DNA of 64,000 bases from the NCBI RefSeq assembly GCF_023015905.1, contig NZ_JALKBD010000013.1, forward strand, positions 1 to 64,000. The letters run 5' to 3'. Position numbers and translations under genes: made by a program. Below are positions 2,982 to 15,885 of this stretch, piece by piece. Positions within the stretch are counted from its first letter, which is position 1. Each line of letters starts with the position of its first letter. The notes beneath the pieces are model-generated. The model was not told where the DNA came from, searched no databases, and saw only the letters and a list, made by a program, of their open reading frames with translations. The DNA is from Arenibacter sp. F20364. GTDB taxonomy: Bacteria; Bacteroidota; Bacteroidia; Flavobacteriales; Flavobacteriaceae.

Positions 2982-4310
2982 ATGAAAACGAGAAGAGATT
3001 TTATCAAAAAAACGGCAGCTGGAGGTGCCGCCCTTAGCTTGGGCGGATTGGTGATGCCGAGCATGGGTTACAGTAACATTCTAGGAGCCAACGACAAAAT
3101 AAATGTTGCGGTAATTGGGGTAAGAAGTAGGGCTAAGGCCCACTTCGTGGCCATTAACCAGGATCCCAATGCCAAAGTTCTTTATAGTTGTGATGTAGAC
3201 GACAAAATTCTGGAAGAACACAATGTTTGGTGCAAGAAAAACATCGGTTATGTCCCTAAAGTAGAAAAAGACTTTAGAAAAGTGTTGGAGGACAAAAAAG
3301 TAGATGCCGTGTTCATTGCTACACCGGAACACTGGCATGCCCCTATGGCCATCATGGCCTTACAAGCAGGGAAACACGTTTATGTTGAAAAGCCATGTAG
3401 CCACAATCCCCACGAAAATGAGCTCTTGGTTGCCGCCCAAAAGAAATATGGCCTAAAGGTACAAATGGGAAACCAACAGCGTTCCGCCCAAAGTTCCGCA
3501 TTGGCCGTTAAAGAAATCCGTGAAGGAATTATTGGGGAAGTCTACAAAGGTGAGGCCTATTATTCCAGCAATAGGGGTTCTATTGGAATTGGGAATAAAA
3601 TAGAGGTCCCCAATACCTTGGACTGGGATCTATGGCAGGGACCGGCCCCTAGGGAAGATTACCGAGACAATATTCACCCCTATAACTGGCATTGGTTCCG
3701 TACGTGGGGAACAGGAGAAATACACAACAATGGTACCCATGAAATTGATATATGCCGTTGGGCCCTAGGGGTAGACCTTCCTGAAAGTGTAACCTCATTT
3801 GGCGGTAAATATACCTTTAAGGATGATTGGGAGTTTGTGGACAACCAACAAGTGACCTATAAATATGCAGATGATAAATTTATTACCTGGACAGGTCATA
3901 GCCGTGGACTTATTAAACCGGATCAACCTGGCAGGGGAATTACCATTTATGGTAGCAAGGGAATGATAACCCTTAGCCGAAACGATTACAATCTTTATAA
4001 TTTGGATGGCAGCCTGATCAAAAAAGTGGAAGAAGGGGTTGAAAGTGAAACCACCAATACCGTGGGTATGGGCGGCCTGGATGTAAACCACATCCATAAT
4101 TTCTTCAGTGCCATTCGTCAGGACACTTCCCTGAATTCCGATATCAATGATGCCAGCATTTCCACCATGCTCTGTCATTTAGGAAATATTGCACAAAATG
4201 TAGGAAGGACCATCCACATCAACCCTACCACTGGTAAGGTCAAAGATGATGATGAAGCCATGTCTTACTGGAAAAGGGAATACCAAAATGGCTGGGAGCC
4301 AAAATTGTAA
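2982..4310 (+). CDS. Tat-exported Gfo/Idh/MocA family oxidoreductase
   Basis: A 442-residue NAD(P)-dependent dehydrogenase-type protein. Residues 1-30 form a twin-arginine signal (RRDFIKK at 4-10, then a small-residue hydrophobic stretch), so the folded protein with bound cofactor is probably exported. The Rossmann segment begins at about residue 40 (INVAVIGVRSRAKAHF) and the family EKP motif is at 136-138. The usual glycine-rich GxGxxG is worn to GVRSRA, which may change cofactor affinity or selectivity. The ATG follows the previous stop with no gap, so the two genes are probably translationally coupled. A role as a glycoside 3-dehydrogenase partner of the DUF1080 protein is likely. A GH109-like NAD-dependent glycosidase is an alternative. 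Confidence 0.87.
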   Translation: MKTRRDFIKKTAAGGAALSLGGLVMPSMGYSNILGANDKINVAVIGVRSRAKAHFVAINQDPNAKVLYSCDVDDKILEEHNVWCKKNIGYVPKVEKDFRKVLEDKKVDAVFIATPEHWHAPMAIMALQAGKHVYVEKPCSHNPHENELLVAAQKKYGLKVQMGNQQRSAQSSALAVKEIREGIIGEVYKGEAYYSSNRGSIGIGNKIEVPNTLDWDLWQGPAPREDYRDNIHPYNWHWFRTWGTGEIHNNGTHEIDICRWALGVDLPESVTSFGGKYTFKDDWEFVDNQQVTYKYADDKFITWTGHSRGLIKPDQPGRGITIYGSKGMITLSRNDYNLYNLDGSLIKKVEEGVESETTNTVGMGGLDVNHIHNFFSAIRQDTSLNSDINDASISTMLCHLGNIAQNVGRTIHINPTTGKVKDDDEAMSYWKREYQNGWEPKL

Positions 4311-4329
4311 TTCTTAGTTTTCAATTGTA

Positions 4330-4367
4330 AAAAGCGGGGGATTTTCTATCGAAAATCCCCCGCTTTT
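4330..4367. terminator. Strong bidirectional terminator between convergent genes
   Basis: A perfect 17-bp stem (4330-4346 with 4351-4367) and a 4-base TATC loop. Each stem ends in AAAA/TTTT, so it can terminate both the rightward oxidoreductase operon and the leftward sigma-factor operon. Confidence 0.85.
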
Positions 4368-4389
4368 ATTTAATTAAAGTTGGTTGCGA

Positions 4390-5895
4390 TTACTGCAGCA
4401 CCACATCTGTAAACTTGGAATTAATAATGATAGACTTGCCACTAGTCTTGTTCATATAATATCCCTTGTTTAAGGTATTATACCCGTTTTTTGTTTTTGA
4501 GAGTTTAAGTTCTTTTGGGTAGACCAATTCTGAATTGCTACCATTTACCGCAATATTAAAGGCTGTTTTTGGCAATACACACCTAAATTCTGCATTTTGA
4601 AGGTTAATATCCAAATCGGTAAAATCTTTGGAAATAGAATTGATGGACAAAGGGCCGAAATTATTTCTTATATACGCCTTCTGCAATAGATTATCAATGG
4701 TTATATCCGAAAAAGTGGCATTAAGGGTAAGGTTTTCAGCTTCCTTAATATTTACCTTGTCCGAGTAATCCGCCTTTAATTGACCATAGTTCCATTTTTG
4801 TACACTAACTGGCGAATAGGAAGCATCTATATACGTCTTGTCGCCTTCAATGGTTGTGGCCAACAAAGTGGAGTAGGATAATGTAGCATTAAGATTCTTG
4901 GTATTCTCTGCCAGAATAACTTCTCCGTGCCTTACATTCATTTTTATTTTGGTGCCTTTTGGCAATTTTATCTTAATGGTTTTCTTCACCTTTAAATTTT
5001 TATCCCCGCCTTTTTTTACCGAATAAAAAACATTGGGTGCGTTGTACTCCCTTTCTTCCATAACAATGAATTCTCTTTTGCCCCCATTGGTAGTATCGAT
5101 CTCTATGGTAATAGTCCCATTGTCGTTTCTTATATTCATAGCCCTTTGATTATTCTCCATGGCTTTGGACTTTTGTTCTTCTGCTTTCTCCTGAATTTCG
5201 ATTCTTTGCCTTTGCACTTCTTCCAATTTTTCCATTCGCTCTTGGTGTGCACGCTCCCTATTCTTTTCCATCTCGCTCCTTCTTTTATCGATTTCCTCCC
5301 GCTTCAACTCCATCCGTTTACTCCATTCCTCCATCTTTTCCTGATAATCCTTTCCAAATCCCTTATCAAATTCCTTCTTCCATTCTTTTAAATAGGCCTC
5401 CCCATCCTTTTTATAGGCCTCATAATCAAATGGCTGCATATTCATTGGAGGTAAGGGCGGCATTTCCAGCATTTCCGGCAATTCCACCAAAGGAGTAATA
5501 TTATATGCTTCCCCTACCCCATTAAATTGATGTAGAAAATCAATATCATAATCTTCGGTATTGAAAGTGGTGAATTCCTGGTGGCCCAAAGCTGTACTTA
5601 CAGTTATCTTTTTACTGTTTCCTATAATCTTTATAGGTTCCTTTTTAAAATAGTCTACTGCTTCCGCGTCGGAAACATCTTCCAATTCCACCAACGTTAG
5701 GATATCCACTTGGTTCTTGTTCCAAGTTTCAAATTCTATATCGGCATAACTGGTATTTACCTCCAGAACCACATCTGCGGAGACATTAAAATTTTCATGG
5801 AAAGTCTTTGTTTTTTTTTGCGCCCAAATAATATTGGTGCCCGCCATTAACATTATCGTTGCGATAAGCCCTATTGTTTTATATATATTTTTCAT
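4390..5895 (-). CDS. Exported protein with DUF4097-like repeats and a charged helical insert
   Basis: I start at the ATG at 5895, which gives a clean signal peptide ending ...IIWAQ. The longer frame up to 5961 would put a basic tail before it. The mature part begins with a beta-rich segment (NFNVSADVVLEVNTSYADIEF). Next come a Met/Pro stretch and about 90 residues very rich in Glu, Lys, Arg and Met, predicted as a long charged helix. The C-terminal half has repeated short beta motifs resembling DUF4097/head-GIN adhesin-like repeats. It is the last gene of an ECF sigma / anti-sigma operon, so it is probably the envelope component of that system. Molecular function unknown; the family link is by pattern only. 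Confidence 0.7.
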   Translation of the reverse strand: MKNIYKTIGLIATIMLMAGTNIIWAQKKTKTFHENFNVSADVVLEVNTSYADIEFETWNKNQVDILTLVELEDVSDAEAVDYFKKEPIKIIGNSKKITVSTALGHQEFTTFNTEDYDIDFLHQFNGVGEAYNITPLVELPEMLEMPPLPPMNMQPFDYEAYKKDGEAYLKEWKKEFDKGFGKDYQEKMEEWSKRMELKREEIDKRRSEMEKNRERAHQERMEKLEEVQRQRIEIQEKAEEQKSKAMENNQRAMNIRNDNGTITIEIDTTNGGKREFIVMEEREYNAPNVFYSVKKGGDKNLKVKKTIKIKLPKGTKIKMNVRHGEVILAENTKNLNATLSYSTLLATTIEGDKTYIDASYSPVSVQKWNYGQLKADYSDKVNIKEAENLTLNATFSDITIDNLLQKAYIRNNFGPLSINSISKDFTDLDINLQNAEFRCVLPKTAFNIAVNGSNSELVYPKELKLSKTKNGYNTLNKGYYMNKTSGKSIIINSKFTDVVLQ

Positions 5896-9884: not shown

Positions 9885-9892
9885 TATCTTTG
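9885..9892 (+). promoter_or_regulatory. -7 box before the glycosylation operon
   Basis: TATCTTTG fits the Bacteroidota -7 consensus TAnnTTTG. It would place transcription start about 30 bases before the GT2 start codon. No convincing -33 TTTG at the right spacing. Confidence 0.4.
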
Positions 9893-9931
9893 GCCCTAAA
9901 TTTAATTTGAAAGCGCTTATCCCGGTACATA

Positions 9932-10645
9932 ATGAAATACGAATTCACCATAATTATTCCTGTCTACAATGAAGAAGATAATTTGGAACGTGTTGAAAAG
10001 GAACTTAAGGACTACTTGTCCATTTGTACGAAAAAGGCGAAAGTATTATTCGTAAACGACGGTTCAAAAGATAAGAGCCAGCAATTGATCGAAAGCATTT
10101 GTCAAAGAAACGAGGCCTTTGGCTTTTTGAAATTTGCACAAAACAGAGGCTTGAGCGCAGCGCTTAAAGCTGGCTTTGACTATGTGGATACTCCTTTGTT
10201 GGGTTATATAGATTCTGACCTTCAAACCTCCCCAGAGGATTTTAACCTGCTCTTGGAACATATAGATCAATACGATCTTGTAACCGGGTTTAGGGCGGAC
10301 AGAAAAGATTCTTTCGTAAAAAATGCTTCCTCTACAATAGCCAATGGCATACGCCGCGCTTTTACGCATGACGGAATGGACGATACAGGCTGTCCGTTGA
10401 AGGTAATAAAAACCGATTTCGCCAAAAGAATTCCAATGTTCAAGGGCCTACATCGATTTTTACCCGCCATGATCCTACTGCAAAATGGAACCATTGTCCA
10501 AATTCCCATCCGCCATTTTCCGCGGCTGGCAGGAACTGCTAAGTTTGGCCTTTGGAACAGGTTATTGGGACCTCTAATGGATTGTTTTGCCTATTTATGG
10601 ATGAAGAAAAAATATATTAACTACCAAGTGGATAAAAGAGGGTAA
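9932..10645 (+). CDS. Family 2 glycosyltransferase, GtrB/dolichol-phosphate mannosyltransferase-like
   Basis: 237 residues with the GT-A features of polyprenyl-phosphate glycosyltransferases: FTIIIPVYNEEDNL at the N-terminus, FVNDGSKDKS, RGLSAALKAGFD, and the DxD-type metal site YIDSDLQTSPED. A late segment, PIRHFPRLAGTAKFGLWNR, matches the acceptor-side region of DPM1/GtrB enzymes. Unlike GtrB it has no C-terminal membrane helices. It should make an undecaprenyl-phosphate-linked sugar on the cytoplasmic face. Its stop codon abuts the ATG of the LAB_N gene, and the chain continues to a GT39 enzyme that can use such a lipid-linked sugar. Confidence 0.9.
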   Translation: MKYEFTIIIPVYNEEDNLERVEKELKDYLSICTKKAKVLFVNDGSKDKSQQLIESICQRNEAFGFLKFAQNRGLSAALKAGFDYVDTPLLGYIDSDLQTSPEDFNLLLEHIDQYDLVTGFRADRKDSFVKNASSTIANGIRRAFTHDGMDDTGCPLKVIKTDFAKRIPMFKGLHRFLPAMILLQNGTIVQIPIRHFPRLAGTAKFGLWNRLLGPLMDCFAYLWMKKKYINYQVDKRG

Positions 10646-11284
10646 ATGGCAGATTGGATGGTTTATGCTATTGGCTTTATTGCCCAAATTCTATTTTCCA
10701 GTAGAATGTTGGTGCAATGGGTAATTTCGGAAAAAAACAAAAAAGTACTTACCCCTAGACTTTTCTGGCAATTAAGTTTACTGGCTTCCTTTCTATTGTT
10801 CGTATACGGATGGCTACGTGATGATTTTGCCATTATGTTGGGACAGGCTATTACCTATTTTATTTATATCCGCAATATTCAATTACAAGGTGAATGGACC
10901 AAATTACCCAAGGCCTTCAGGGCATTTCTATGGATATTCCCAGTAATCATCATTATTTATGGATACAATAACAATACCTACGACCTCAAGCAATTTTTTA
11001 GTGAGGACAACATTCCTATCTGGTTACTGTTGTTGGGGAGCATAGCCCAAGTTATTTTCACCTTTCGATTTGTCTATCAATGGATATATTCCGAGAAAAA
11101 GAAGACCTCCAGTCTTCCCTTCGGTTTTTGGTTACTAAGTTTAATCGGGGCCTCCTTAATTCTTACCTATGCTATTTTTAGACGGGACCCCGTCCTTTTC
11201 GCTGGTCATAGTTTAGGTCTCATCGTTTATTTGAGAAATTTATTTATCCTTAAAAATGAAGTTCATGACGTGGTTGAAAAATAA
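10646..11284 (+). CDS. Membrane protein with tandem LAB_N domains
   Basis: Two copies of the LAB_N unit (PF07578, the N-terminal domain of some lipid-A-disaccharide synthases) at about 3-75 and 122-195. Each copy has the pattern Ile-Ala-Gln-x-(Leu/Val)-Phe...Arg...(Val/Tyr)-Gln-Trp...SEK, then a hydrophobic turn with FW and an ILxG-type end. About six membrane helices are predicted. The duplication resembles small multidrug-resistance-like dimers used to flip lipid-linked sugars. Between a GT2 and a GT39 gene, a flippase role for the polyprenyl-phosphate sugar is plausible. The domain call is from sequence; the flippase role is inference. Confidence 0.85.
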   Translation: MADWMVYAIGFIAQILFSSRMLVQWVISEKNKKVLTPRLFWQLSLLASFLLFVYGWLRDDFAIMLGQAITYFIYIRNIQLQGEWTKLPKAFRAFLWIFPVIIIIYGYNNNTYDLKQFFSEDNIPIWLLLLGSIAQVIFTFRFVYQWIYSEKKKTSSLPFGFWLLSLIGASLILTYAIFRRDPVLFAGHSLGLIVYLRNLFILKNEVHDVVEK

Positions 11285-12908
11285 TCCTATCGCCTTGATC
11301 TTGCTGGCGGGAATCTCCATTTTTCTATTTCATTTAAACGTTATTCCCGTTACCATCATGGAAGCTAGAAATTTCATAACCGCGAGGGAAATGATTTCGG
11401 ACGGAAATTGGTTGCTAACTACTATGAACGACCTTCCTAGATATGAGAAACCCCCCTTACCAAGTTGGATCACCGCTATTTTTGGATTTATTTTTGGTGT
11501 GGAAAATGTGGCCACACTTCGATTACCAACAATGTTGATGGCCATTGTTTTAGGGTATGTGGGATATGCCTTCTCCTTAAAAATATTGGGCAATAAATTA
11601 CATGCACTAATAAATGCCCTTATTCTATTAAGTTCGTTCTATATCATCGCAATTACTGTTGAAGCACCATGGGATATATACACCCACGGATTTATGTTAA
11701 CGGCCATTTATTTTTTATATAGTTTTTTTAGCCTACCAGACCACAAATGGAAGAACAGTATACTAGCCGGAGTCTTTATAGGCCTATCCTTTATGAGTAA
11801 AGGACCAGTGTCCCTATATGGCCTTCTATTGCCTTTTCTTTTGGCCTATGGTTTTGTATATACCTATAAGGACTTTGGTGTAAACAGGAAATATATCTCC
11901 TTGCTAGTTATGATACTCTTGGCTCTGGTTGTTGGTGTATGGTGGTTCCTATACGTTCGCCTTGCCGATCCCAATGCTTTTATGGCCATCACTAAAAAAG
12001 AAACAGCCAATTGGTCCAGCTACAATGTGCGACCCTTTTATTATTATTGGAGCTTTTTTGTACAAAGCGGAATATGGACCATTCCAGCTTTAATAGGCCT
12101 TTTATATCCCTATCTTAAAAATAAGGTAAGTGACAAAAAAGCATACCTATTTACCTTTTTATGGACTATTTTTTCGGTAATTTTGCTTTCCATCATCCCG
12201 GAAAAAAAAGCCAGATATCTTGTTCCCGTATTAATTCCACTCGCTTTCAACACAGGGTTTTATGCGGAGTACATCATTGGAAATTTTAAGAGCCAGCTAT
12301 CCCAAAAGGAAAAAATACCCGTGTATTTACATTTTGGATTGATCGGACTAGTAGGAATTTCGTTTCCTTTGGTCGCTTACTTGCTATTAAAGGATGGCCT
12401 GCAACCTTTCTGGGCTTATTATGCCTTATCGTCCTTAGCACTCCTTGCCATAGGTGTTTTAATTATTATTCAGCTAAAAAAGAATAAACTTTTTAACTGT
12501 TTTTTATTGACCGTTTTATTAATAGGTGCTATTAAAACCCTGGCAATGCCTTTGGCCGGAGCCATGGACAAAAATTCCAAGTATAAAAGTATTTCTCTAT
12601 TAAAGGAGACTATGCAAAAAGAGGGAATAAAAACCTATTGCTTTGGGGAAATTGCCCCTGAAATGATCTGGGACTATGGCTCATCGATTCCCGTGCTTAA
12701 AGGGGAGGATGAAATATTGATTCCGGATGGGGAAAAATATGCCGTTTTGGTAGTTCCGCAAGATGAATCTGAATTTAAACGTATATTTGACCCCGAATAT
12801 AACTATACCTTAAAGACCGTATACGACCTCAACTATAACGCGGATCCAGGAACCAGAGGATATAAGAACCGTTTGACAAGTAATTTATATATAGTACAAA
12901 AACGATGA
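11256..12908 (+). CDS. GT39 family membrane glycosyltransferase, ArnT/PMT-like
   Basis: 550 residues with about a dozen membrane helices. The first periplasmic loop has the family motif NVIPVTIMEARNFITAREMI, in which acidic and Arg residues stand where catalytic residues lie in ArnT/PMT enzymes, followed by YEKPPLPSW. These enzymes transfer a sugar from a polyprenyl-phosphate donor to lipid A or protein on the periplasmic side. The frame overlaps the LAB_N gene by 29 bases; an ATG at 11265 is an equally good start. The C-terminal soluble tail (about 440-550) is probably the periplasmic domain. The acceptor is unknown. Confidence 0.88.
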   Translation: MKFMTWLKNNPIALILLAGISIFLFHLNVIPVTIMEARNFITAREMISDGNWLLTTMNDLPRYEKPPLPSWITAIFGFIFGVENVATLRLPTMLMAIVLGYVGYAFSLKILGNKLHALINALILLSSFYIIAITVEAPWDIYTHGFMLTAIYFLYSFFSLPDHKWKNSILAGVFIGLSFMSKGPVSLYGLLLPFLLAYGFVYTYKDFGVNRKYISLLVMILLALVVGVWWFLYVRLADPNAFMAITKKETANWSSYNVRPFYYYWSFFVQSGIWTIPALIGLLYPYLKNKVSDKKAYLFTFLWTIFSVILLSIIPEKKARYLVPVLIPLAFNTGFYAEYIIGNFKSQLSQKEKIPVYLHFGLIGLVGISFPLVAYLLLKDGLQPFWAYYALSSLALLAIGVLIIIQLKKNKLFNCFLLTVLLIGAIKTLAMPLAGAMDKNSKYKSISLLKETMQKEGIKTYCFGEIAPEMIWDYGSSIPVLKGEDEILIPDGEKYAVLVVPQDESEFKRIFDPEYNYTLKTVYDLNYNADPGTRGYKNRLTSNLYIVQKR

Positions 12909-13576
12909 TGAGCATCTTAACTAAAATTGAAAAAATAGGGTACAGTATTTTATTGGCAATTGTCTTGTTTGGTCTTTATTTGGGCCTAAGCGACGATATA
13001 TATTTTGATGTTAACTATGCCCAAGAGGATGGTCCCGTAGAATGGGGAACAGCCATTATGCTACTCGGAATATGCATCCTTTCGCTCTACCATTTATTAA
13101 GGTTGTGGGGCACAAAAAAAATATTATGGAAACTGGGGACTTCCATTTTCGTAGTCTTGTTCCTTTTTGCTGCTGGGGAAGAAATTTCATGGGGTCAACG
13201 AATTTTCGGGGTGGAATCAAGCGAATTTTTTATCGAGAACAATGCCCAAGGGGAAACCAATTTACACAATCTGATGGTGGGCGAAACGAAAATAAACAAA
13301 ATCATCTTCAGCCAGTTATTGTTTCTGGTGATGTTTCTTTATCTATTAGTTACCCCTATACTCTATAGAAAATTTGGTTGGTTTAAGGATTTGGCCAACA
13401 ATTTTGCCGTACCCATTGTAAAATGGCATCATACCATCGCCTTTTTAGTGGTTACCATATTTGTTGCACTTAATCCTGCTAGCCGTACATGGGAAGTGTA
13501 CGAACTGGCATTTGGAGCTATCTTTTTCTTGATTTTTATGGGCCCACTGAACAAAGAAATTTTTGAACGGGAATAA
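12905..13576 (+). CDS. Uncharacterised multi-pass membrane protein
   Basis: 223 residues with about six hydrophobic segments. The most striking motif is FAAGEEISWGQRIFG at about 85-100: two acidic residues next to a conserved Trp-Gly-Gln-Arg at a membrane edge. Further on are NLHNLMVGETKIN and a C-terminal WEVYELAFGA. The gene overlaps the GT39 gene by 4 bases (ATGA), so they are co-translated. Similar EEISWGQR membrane proteins occur in many bacteria without assigned function. Position suggests a role in the same lipid-linked glycan step, but that is inference. Confidence 0.75.
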   Translation: MMSILTKIEKIGYSILLAIVLFGLYLGLSDDIYFDVNYAQEDGPVEWGTAIMLLGICILSLYHLLRLWGTKKILWKLGTSIFVVLFLFAAGEEISWGQRIFGVESSEFFIENNAQGETNLHNLMVGETKINKIIFSQLLFLVMFLYLLVTPILYRKFGWFKDLANNFAVPIVKWHHTIAFLVVTIFVALNPASRTWEVYELAFGAIFFLIFMGPLNKEIFERE

Positions 13577-13621: not shown

Positions 13622-14191
13622 TCAACGATCGTATTTGGCAACCGCCTTTAGAAAGAGCTGAAGAAATAATCCACCCAAAAATGTTCCAATAATCATTCCC
13701 GTTAGCACATCCAACGGAAAATGTACCCCTATATATATTCTGCTATAGGCGACAACTGAAGCCCAAACCATTAGAAAAGCTCCCAAATATTTATAATTTG
13801 TGCGTAATAAGGTGGTAAAGAAAATGGCTACAGCAAAAGAATTGGCGGCATGGGCAGAGAAATAGCCAAATTTTCCGCCACAGGAACTTTTCACCAAACG
13901 CATCAACCCATTTAACTCAGGATCATGACAGGGCCTCAATCGCTGCACGCCATATTTAAAAAAATTGGCCAATTGATCTGTAACCAAAATAAGTACCGCA
14001 ATAGCCACGAGCGTCAATAAAAGACGTTTTAGACCGAAGGCCTTATAGGTAAGAAAGGCCAAAAAGACATAAAGGGGAATTGAACTCCATTTATTGGTCA
14101 TAAAAAGCCAAAAACCGTCCCACCGGGCGGTACCCAAGTTATTGAGGAACAGAAACAGCTCCTTGTCGTATTGTATCAATTGTTCCAACAT
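13622..14191 (-). CDS. PAP2 family membrane phosphatase
   Basis: 189 residues, about five membrane helices. All three acid-phosphatase motifs are visible: KYGVQRLRP (79-87), SAHAANSFA (112-120, with His114 as acid) and SRIYIGVHFPLD (150-161, with the nucleophile His157). Such enzymes dephosphorylate undecaprenyl pyrophosphate, phosphatidylglycerol phosphate or lipid A. The substrate cannot be told from sequence. It ends convergently with the glycosylation operon and is the last gene of a MATE / small protein / PAP2 unit. Confidence 0.9.
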   Translation of the reverse strand: MLEQLIQYDKELFLFLNNLGTARWDGFWLFMTNKWSSIPLYVFLAFLTYKAFGLKRLLLTLVAIAVLILVTDQLANFFKYGVQRLRPCHDPELNGLMRLVKSSCGGKFGYFSAHAANSFAVAIFFTTLLRTNYKYLGAFLMVWASVVAYSRIYIGVHFPLDVLTGMIIGTFLGGLFLQLFLKAVAKYDR

Positions 14192-14496: not shown

Positions 14497-15885
14497 TTAA
14501 TCTATCTCCTGCAATAACTTTTGGGCAATTAGTTTCTTGGTCAAATAATTAAATCGAATATACAACATTAAAGCGGATGCCGTAAGTCCGGCCAATAAGC
14601 CGATCCATATACCGGTACTCTCCAAAGGAGTATATAATCCCAGATAAAAACTAATGGGAAAGCCTATTACCCAATAAGCTATAAAAGTAATAATAGTCGG
14701 AATCTTTACATCCTGAAGCCCCCTTAAAGCACCTAGGACAACCACCTGCAAGCCATCGGAAATTTGAAATACGGCAGCAACCAATATTAGTTCCGCTGCA
14801 ATCTTGATTACTTCTGTATTGTCCCCAAAATTGGTGGCATCACCAAGGTCCAAATAAATCGTTGGAAGAAAATCGTTTAGAACAACAAAACAAACTGCAA
14901 ATATGACTTCCAATATTAGAGTGAGCAGAAAAATAGATTGCGCAATACGCCTTAATTCCTTAAAATCTGTCAATCCCTTTTGATTTCCAACCCGTATCAT
15001 TGCTGCAACACCTAGGCCCATTCCCACCATAAATGTCATACTACTGAGATTTAAGGCAATCTGGTTGGCCGCTTGGGAATTCTTGCCCAGAACACCACTC
15101 ACCCAAACGGCTGCAGTGAAAATGGCCACTTCAAAGAACATTTGTAAAGCCGAAGGAAATCCGAGGTCAATGATTTTCTTCATGACCTTTTTCTCTATCT
15201 TTCTAAAGTTGAATCCAGTTACATAATCGTGAAATTTCTTTTTGTTTTTGAGCAGTACCCAAAGAAAGATCACCATAATAATACGGGAAACCAAGGTCCC
15301 TACCGCAGCTCCTACGATACCCATTTTAGGAAACCCCCAGGAACCAAAAATAAGGAGGTAATTCAACAGAATGTTCACAAAATTGGCAATGACAGTCGCA
15401 TACATGGGGTACTTAGTCTGGGACAGGCCCTCTGAAAATTGTTTAAACGCTTGGAAAACAATTAGGGGAACCAAAGAAAATGCCACCAAATCCAAATAAG
15501 GCATGGCCAATTCTACCACCTCTGGAGGTTGCTTCATAAGATACATGAGCGGCTTGGCCAACAATATTATACCAAACAGTGAAAATCCCAATACTGTGCA
15601 CAACAACAGGCCATGCTTTAAAGCGCTTTTTCCATCACCAACATTTCCTGCCCCATCGGCCTCTGCAACCAAAGGTGTAATGGCAGTTGAAAATCCTATC
15701 CCCAAGGACATGGCTATAAATACAAAACTGTTCCCCAAGGAGACCGCTGCCAATTCTGCCGTACCCAATTGACCCACCATAATATTGTCGGCAAACTGTA
15801 CAAAGGAATGCCCCAGCATTCCTAGGATTACGGGAAAAGAAAGGGACAGGTTATATCTGAACTCCTTTGTGTATTTCTGTAACAA
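14497..15885 (-). CDS. MATE family efflux transporter
   Basis: 462 residues with 12 predicted helices in two similar halves. Family motifs include FADNIMVGQLGTAELAAVSLGNS in helix 1-2 and GLQVVVLGALRGLQD in the second half. MATE/NorM proteins export drugs or lipid-linked metabolites using Na+ or H+. The start is TTG at 15885, directly before the conserved N-terminus. A matching -7 box lies 20 bases upstream, which supports it. Confidence 0.92.
   Translation of the reverse strand: MLQKYTKEFRYNLSLSFPVILGMLGHSFVQFADNIMVGQLGTAELAAVSLGNSFVFIAMSLGIGFSTAITPLVAEADGAGNVGDGKSALKHGLLLCTVLGFSLFGIILLAKPLMYLMKQPPEVVELAMPYLDLVAFSLVPLIVFQAFKQFSEGLSQTKYPMYATVIANFVNILLNYLLIFGSWGFPKMGIVGAAVGTLVSRIIMVIFLWVLLKNKKKFHDYVTGFNFRKIEKKVMKKIIDLGFPSALQMFFEVAIFTAAVWVSGVLGKNSQAANQIALNLSSMTFMVGMGLGVAAMIRVGNQKGLTDFKELRRIAQSIFLLTLILEVIFAVCFVVLNDFLPTIYLDLGDATNFGDNTEVIKIAAELILVAAVFQISDGLQVVVLGALRGLQDVKIPTIITFIAYWVIGFPISFYLGLYTPLESTGIWIGLLAGLTASALMLYIRFNYLTKKLIAQKLLQEID

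Follow-up and report, generated by a model that had tools for sequence, protein, structure and literature searches.

Arenibacter sp. F20364 is a marine member of the Flavobacteriaceae with a genome of 5.7 Mb. The first 64,000 nucleotides of its contig NZ_JALKBD010000013.1 (hereafter the window) carry four contiguous genes, encoding a GT2 glycosyltransferase, a membrane protein composed of two LAB_N domains, a GT39 transferase and a membrane protein with the motif EEISWGQR (Table 1). The four genes are real, and the first three constitute a conserved module. We propose that this module encodes a three-component extracytoplasmic glycosylation system in which LAB_N, a protein of the SWEET superfamily, would fill the slot of the flippase, a reading to which we give slightly better than an even chance. 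It is founded on the association of the genes across phyla, the fusion of LAB_N with GT39, the grouping of the LAB_N halves as one duplication would give, and the fact that no GtrA- or ArnE-like protein was found in the genome.

Conservation of the GT2-LAB_N-GT39 module

Eighty genomic loci, the best of at least 559 LAB_N relatives, were compared. GT2 adjoins LAB_N in 77 of them and GT39 does so in 76. The exceptions are L114, which has no GT2 beside LAB_N, L089, which lies at a contig end, and L076, which reflects a start-codon artefact of the open reading frame (ORF) caller; L095 and L103 have no GT39 in the stretch examined, and in L056 and L058 the GT39 gene is displaced by an inserted GT2 and GT39 pair. 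In the latter two loci the extra pair separates LAB_N from the window-type GT39, an arrangement suggestive of a single LAB_N serving two donors.

In a sample of 118 genomes of the phylum, tandem LAB_N was found in four besides the host, at five loci (G107, G049, G076 and twice in G072). GT39 lies within ~1.4 kb at all five, and GT2 is adjacent at four. In G076 the tandem LAB_N and the PMT_2 (GT39) domain are fused in one ORF of 753 amino acids, with GT2 directly upstream.

The association was also seen on plasmids. The 18 plasmid records examined, each with a LAB_N relative, come from Bacteroidota (3), Pseudomonadota (11), Fusobacteriota (3) and Bacillota (1). GT2 lies within ~4 kb in 16 of them and GT39 in 17, i.e. 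15 by profile and two, both of Hymenobacter, by annotation. All three genes are present in plasmids of Bacteroidota, Pseudomonadota and Fusobacteriota, and the sole Bacillota record has GT2 and LAB_N only. LAB_N is a single-domain protein in the 15 non-Bacteroidota records. Three gene orders occur: GT2-LAB_N-GT39, LAB_N-GT39-GT2 and GT39-GT2-LAB_N. In Hymenobacter sp. HDW8 (L168) the LAB_N copies are annotated as two ORFs three bases apart (3968-4327 and 4331-4636), which may reflect a tandem gene that has split or an error in sequencing.

As a control, seven of the 17 weak LAB_N loci found in the phylum sample, SemiSWEET-like and two of them just above the LAB_N cut-off, were read to ~5 kb. 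None gave a match to the GT2 or GT39 profile, even at E 10; these profiles were built from the 80 loci and could miss distant members. The two control loci scanned with Pfam (L180 and L181) were both above the PQ-loop cut-off.

The co-occurrence proposed in the preliminary description is therefore borne out, LAB_N being seldom without GT2 and GT39 partners in relatives and plasmids. As the set recurs with different flanking genes and in different gene orders, the module is not a product of chance. It is also wider than the preliminary description knew, the same kind of cluster being present in two or more bacterial phyla besides Bacteroidota.

Properties of the core proteins

The tandem protein exceeds the curated cut-off of the Pfam family LAB_N (PF07578; 26.7 bits) by a wide margin (Table 1). 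It also passes the Pfam model MtN3_slv (SWEET), with 27.9 bits versus a cut-off of 23.7, and none of three single LAB_N proteins scanned with Pfam was above that cut-off. A profile of 43 LAB_N relatives matched six PDB chains at E ≤1, the best at 9.3e-5; five are named SemiSWEET, and the sixth, 4qnd, we take to be a SemiSWEET as well. The PQ-loop family (PF04193) gave no match to the tandem protein at E 1, and an alignment with 4qnd shows Arg-Phe in the second repeat at the position of Pro-Gln. In the portion of the source available, LAB_N is placed together with PQ-loop in the MtN3-like Pfam clan (PMC4499210).

An AlphaFold2 model of the tandem protein (pLDDT 86, pTM 0.78) has its helices laid out as 3+1+3, with long helices at residues 3-31, 38-57, 61-80, 89-108, 125-152, 159-179 and 182-211. 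Judging from the sequence profiles and this predicted topology, LAB_N appears to belong with the SemiSWEET/SWEET superfamily. The preliminary description had suggested a similarity to EmrE-like dimers, but no SMR family was among the matches at E 1, and an EmrE- or ArnE-like identity was rejected in favour of SemiSWEET/SWEET.

An alignment of 43 first halves, 43 second halves and 15 single-domain LAB_N proteins revealed invariant residues, i.e. R20, Q24, S28, E29, P37, F40, W41, Y54, R76, N77 and their second-half counterparts. The placement of arginines within the predicted helices would be compatible with a lipid phosphate. A domain tree was built from 45 of the 101 domain rows; several of its branches are flagged as long. 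In it, the first halves lie on one side of a branch (100/100) and the second halves likewise (100/99), as one old duplication would give. Such a duplication resembles the step from SemiSWEET to SWEET.

The closest solved relatives of the GT2 protein are ArnC (2.4e-23) and GtrB sll0501 (5.2e-18), which bears out its description as ArnC/GtrB-like. It matches the NCBIfam ArnC model at 8.2e-26, yet with 90.8 of 529 bits. The alignment to ArnC stops at residue 224 of 322, and ArnC extends ~100 residues further. By hydropathy, the window GT2 has no 19-residue hydrophobic segment (maximum 1.09), and the same analysis found no transmembrane segment for 75 of 78 GT2 matches in the locus set. By its similarity to ArnC and GtrB the protein would fit the polyprenyl-phosphate sugar synthase of three-component systems.

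Both Pfam matches of the GT39 protein (Table 1) are above the cut-off. The ArnT model PRK13279 is matched at 1.9e-21 with 76.3 of 567 bits, far below the equivalog cut-off. By these profiles the protein is ArnT/PMT-like, as had been claimed, and is not assignable as ArnT. The host genome has a second, more ArnT-like GT39 (2.6e-50; positions 6227-7960 of L178, contig C103), with no GT2 or LAB_N within the 13 kb examined around it. This second enzyme might share the donor made by the window module.

A GtrA profile search of the host genome found none; the same search was positive in 7 of 14 control genomes. The sole SMR protein of the host, located on another contig, is SugE-like (75.2 of 126 bits) and reaches 23.8 of 92 bits with the ArnE model. 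With GtrA not found and a single, SugE-like SMR protein, no competing GtrA or ArnE homologue was identified in this genome. The classes published for the middle step, as named in the available parts of two papers, are GtrA, SMR, MATE and Wzx (PMC11127046, PMC8035078). None of these lies between the transferase genes of the window, where LAB_N occupies the GtrA or ArnE/F slot instead, just as first supposed; the MATE gene is found beyond PAP2, on the other strand.

Among 299 genomes of the family, LAB_N is above the cut-off in 120, GtrA in 22 and both in seven. Twelve GtrA loci from the 22 genomes were examined: seven have a GT2 match, and five of these seven GT2 proteins are without membrane helices. 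A helix-free GT2 as a specialty of LAB_N operons is thereby ruled out. The GT2 proteins beside LAB_N and beside GtrA are alike in kind, and this speaks for LAB_N and GtrA doing comparable work.

Proposed mechanism and alternative explanations

According to the proposed mechanism, the helix-free GT2 would load one sugar onto undecaprenyl phosphate at the cytoplasmic face of the membrane. LAB_N, as two three-helix bundles, would carry the sugar on its lipid across to the outer face; the two-bundle unit would be the tandem protein in Bacteroidota and presumably a homodimer of single domains elsewhere. GT39 would then pass the sugar to an acceptor outside the cytoplasm. Within this scheme we infer that the carrier is undecaprenyl phosphate, that flipping takes place and in which direction it runs, and that an acceptor receives the sugar; LAB_N probably acts as the flippase. 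We also put forward, tentatively and with some doubt, a broader version, in which LAB_N proteins would be SWEET-superfamily carriers of polyprenyl-phosphate sugars across phyla, existing as single-domain dimers and as a tandem form, replacing GtrA and representing the bacterial counterpart of MPDU1 beside the counterparts of DPM1 and PMT.

The module resembles the GtrA/GtrB/Gtr and ArnC/ArnE-ArnF/ArnT systems, in which a polyprenyl-phosphate sugar GT2, a small membrane protein and a GT-C transferase are likewise clustered. It differs from them in that the small membrane protein is LAB_N and the GT2 is devoid of C-terminal membrane helices. With the SemiSWEET/SWEET and PQ-loop proteins LAB_N shares the three-helix unit, the tandem 3+1+3 arrangement with a linking helix, and profile similarity, whereas the Arg-Phe pair, the invariant Arg and Glu in both halves and the steady company of GT2 and GT39 set it apart.

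A further parallel is provided by RgtE/RgtF and LpxE of rhizobia; we take RgtF to be GT39-like and LpxE to be PAP2-like. As far as the accessible Rgt literature describes them, RgtE and RgtF, with the lipid A 1-phosphatase LpxE, add galacturonic acid to lipid A from a lipid donor. The likeness lies in the combination described, a bactoprenyl-phosphate sugar transferase together with a lipid-donor transferase. In eukaryotes, MPDU1 is a membrane protein from the clan of LAB_N that is used alongside DPM1 and PMT/ALG, which represent the two enzyme classes present here. This system differs in using dolichol and a PQ-loop protein, and is likened to LAB_N by clan, not by direct comparison. The mechanism of MPDU1, which eukaryotes require in order to use dolichol-phosphate-mannose and dolichol-phosphate-glucose, was called unsolved in the available part of a 2014 review (PMC4281381).

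Nothing was found in the open-licence literature that joins LAB_N with lipid A biosynthesis, a combined search on lipid-A-disaccharide synthase was likewise empty, and PF07578 appeared there only in a plant SWEET paper. Undecaprenyl and SemiSWEET occurred together only in a review on mass spectrometry, judging by its title. The open-licence main texts checked on ArnT, GtrA, undecaprenyl phosphate and flippases, to the extent that they were accessible, contain no mention of LAB_N, lipid A biosynthesis or PQ-loop. In the available part of one of the papers cited above, flippase activity is said to be mostly inferred for such proteins and not directly demonstrated (PMC11127046).

Several observations weigh against the flippase reading. 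Many of the counted neighbourhoods were drawn from a single bacterial family, whose members share synteny, and Arenibacter itself accounts for 12 of the 80 loci. GT2 and LAB_N occur without GT39 nearby in L095, L103 and L154, and LAB_N occurs without GT2 nearby in L032, L114, L152 and L168. The NCBIfam models SemiSWEET_2 (23.4 of 80 bits) and SemiSWEET_3 (25.3 of 100 bits) stay below their cut-offs, and the N-terminus of the NCBIfam LpxB model, where a flippase role is not obvious, matches the tandem protein better (8.1e-27). The top Foldseek matches of the predicted structure are SWEETs, but weak ones (E 0.027, TM 0.37, root-mean-square deviation 14.2). VIA-align gave PnuC (Z 10.0, 153 residues, root-mean-square deviation 4.2) tied with designed helical repeats, and in its lists for the models of LAB_N and of the fourth protein nothing stands clear of unrelated helical proteins. 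The 299 genomes gave no signal of mutual exclusion of GtrA and LAB_N, or of replacement of one by the other (Fisher p 0.50). None of the 12 GtrA loci matches the window GT39 profile significantly, which slightly lowers the weight of the flippase reading; for this reason it is the GT2 that carries the parallel with GtrA, and the third component beside LAB_N and beside GtrA need not be the same.

The missing membrane helices of GT2 point to another possibility, namely that LAB_N is a membrane anchor or organiser of this enzyme and flips nothing, in which case the donor would cross otherwise or GT39 would take it up itself. DPM2 and DPM3 serve human DPM1 in this way. Such a role would agree with the prevalence of GT2 proteins without a transmembrane segment, whose match ends where ArnC continues, with the presence of LAB_N at the N-terminus of the LpxB model, and with the three GT2 and LAB_N pairs that have no GT39 nearby. 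On the other hand, LAB_N and GT39 also occur without a nearby GT2, and the fusion, observed in one genome, joins LAB_N to GT39 and not to GT2. The charged residues kept in both halves would seem to be more than an anchor needs, and since GT2 proteins adjacent to GtrA are mostly helix-free too, the trait is not particular to LAB_N. We regard anchoring as unlikely. Less likely again, in our view, is that LAB_N is an MPDU1-like utilisation factor, which would present or free the lipid-linked sugar to GT39 with no membrane crossing. The fusion with GT39 would suit this role, as would the clan that LAB_N shares with PQ-loop (PMC4499210, in the part available), but the Pro-Gln of SemiSWEET 4qnd is Arg-Phe in LAB_N, and the slot is otherwise held by GtrA, a proposed flippase.

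It can also be asked whether the neighbouring MATE protein is the flippase, with LAB_N moving free sugar. One paper, in its available text, proposes a MATE-family protein as the flippase of a three-component pentofuranose system (PMC11127046), and a MATE gene is present in 45 of the 80 loci. However, MATE and PAP2 look like syntenic neighbours, because both stay near MeaB in two loci that have no module (L156 and L157). The gene table of the 14 annotated plasmid loci, which is incomplete, has no MATE gene next to LAB_N, and the window MATE protein passes the efflux model TIGR00797. The control loci of SemiSWEET type, moreover, are without GT2 and GT39. We consider this explanation highly improbable.

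Gene layout, accessory genes and biological meaning

ORF calling confirmed the four genes in the order claimed in the preliminary description, with no bases between GT2 and LAB_N, an overlap of 29 between LAB_N and GT39 and one of 4 between GT39 and the fourth gene. Its start of the module at 9885 was wrong, the first start codon after the stop in the GT2 frame being the ATG at 9932. Aldose epimerase, DUF2911 and MeaB genes lie 5' of the module; PAP2, an 87-amino-acid ORF without a family and the MATE transporter follow 3' on the opposite strand. The nearest named relatives listed are Arenibacter spp., with a LAB_N protein identity of 83-94% in 12 loci.

Table 1. Coordinates of the module and its neighbours in the window
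Feature	Position	Strand	Remarks
GT2, putative polyprenyl-phosphate sugar transferase (ArnC/GtrB/DPM1-like), without transmembrane helices	9932..10645	+	237 amino acids; Pfam Glycos_transf_2 7.5e-26
Tandem LAB_N membrane protein, candidate polyprenyl-phosphate sugar carrier	10646..11284	+	212 amino acids; two LAB_N domains, 195.6 bits
LAB_N copy 1	10670..10882	+	Pfam LAB_N domain
LAB_N copy 2	11033..11242	+	Pfam LAB_N domain
GT39 (GT-C) transferase, ArnT/PMT-like; predicted extracytoplasmic user of lipid-linked sugar	11256..12908	+	550 amino acids; PMT_2 4.1e-13, PMT 1.9e-7
Membrane protein with EEISWGQR, optional accessory outside the core	12905..13576	+	223 amino acids; no Pfam/NCBIfam family
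PAP2 phosphatase, convergent neighbour	13622..14191	-	PAP2 2e-24
MATE transporter	14497-15885	-	passes efflux model TIGR00797

Half of the 80 loci encode the EEISWGQR protein next to a GT39; in the remaining 40, three of which have less than 4 kb after LAB_N, no copy was found. Pfam searches with 31 of its members gave weak, scattered matches and nothing else, and fold searches gave no clear match. A strong copy (E <1e-50) is present in 25 of the 299 genomes, i.e. in 22 of the 120 with LAB_N above the cut-off and in 3 of the 179 others (Fisher p 3.6e-7, with relatedness ignored and the genomes not independent). In two of these three genomes (L156 of G298 and L157 of G313) the gene lies between MeaB and PAP2, at the usual site of the module, and the module itself is absent; this can be explained in two ways: (i) the module was lost there or (ii) it was inserted beside the EEISWGQR gene elsewhere. 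Distant relatives of the protein occur at other sites, and some of them form tandem arrays within groups of GT2 genes, e.g. three in tandem among several GT2 genes in L164 and L165. The protein is associated with the module, yet separable and optional. The earlier inclusion of its gene as a required member did not hold, since half of the loci are without it and it occurs in two loci without the module.

PAP2 is present in 62 of the 80 loci, close and convergent in 56. The enzyme could be an undecaprenyl-pyrophosphate phosphatase or a lipid A phosphatase.

Genes for a sugar-nucleotide dehydrogenase, dehydratase or epimerase lie within 4 kb in 7 of the 14 annotated plasmid loci. In the Paenibacillus locus, UDP-glucose-dehydrogenase-like and epimerase-like genes were read from the ORFs upstream, and annotated genes of the sugar-nucleotide dehydrogenase/epimerase type lie near the Cetobacterium loci. 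They hint at uronic acids as the sugar in these loci. Likewise, 7 of the 14 loci (L148, L149, L150, L152, L155, L168 and L170) have a response regulator gene within 4 kb of LAB_N, together with one for a histidine kinase or ATP-binding protein, which would fit induction of the modification by a signal. A plasmid of Azospirillum lipoferum strain 4B carries GT2-LAB_N-GT39; an rgtF-like gene is reported for this species in the accessible Rgt literature.

Lipid A as the acceptor in this family is not supported. In the available part of the source, lipid A of Zunongwangia profunda has phosphate or phosphoethanolamine and no added sugar, although a labile group could be lost (PMC9470727). The module is present in Z. 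pacifica (L113), a different species from that of the lipid A study.

The name of the LAB_N family is misleading, as it refers to lipid A synthesis, yet its members are found in sugar-transfer clusters of at least three phyla. The LAB_N system gives a bacterial setting for the question of MPDU1, whose role, if our reading is true, could be studied in bacteria. If true, it would also mean that a new class of flippase, flagged by a family named for lipid A synthesis, completes many glycosylation clusters, perhaps even in Paenibacillus, a Gram-positive bacterium that is not expected to have lipid A.

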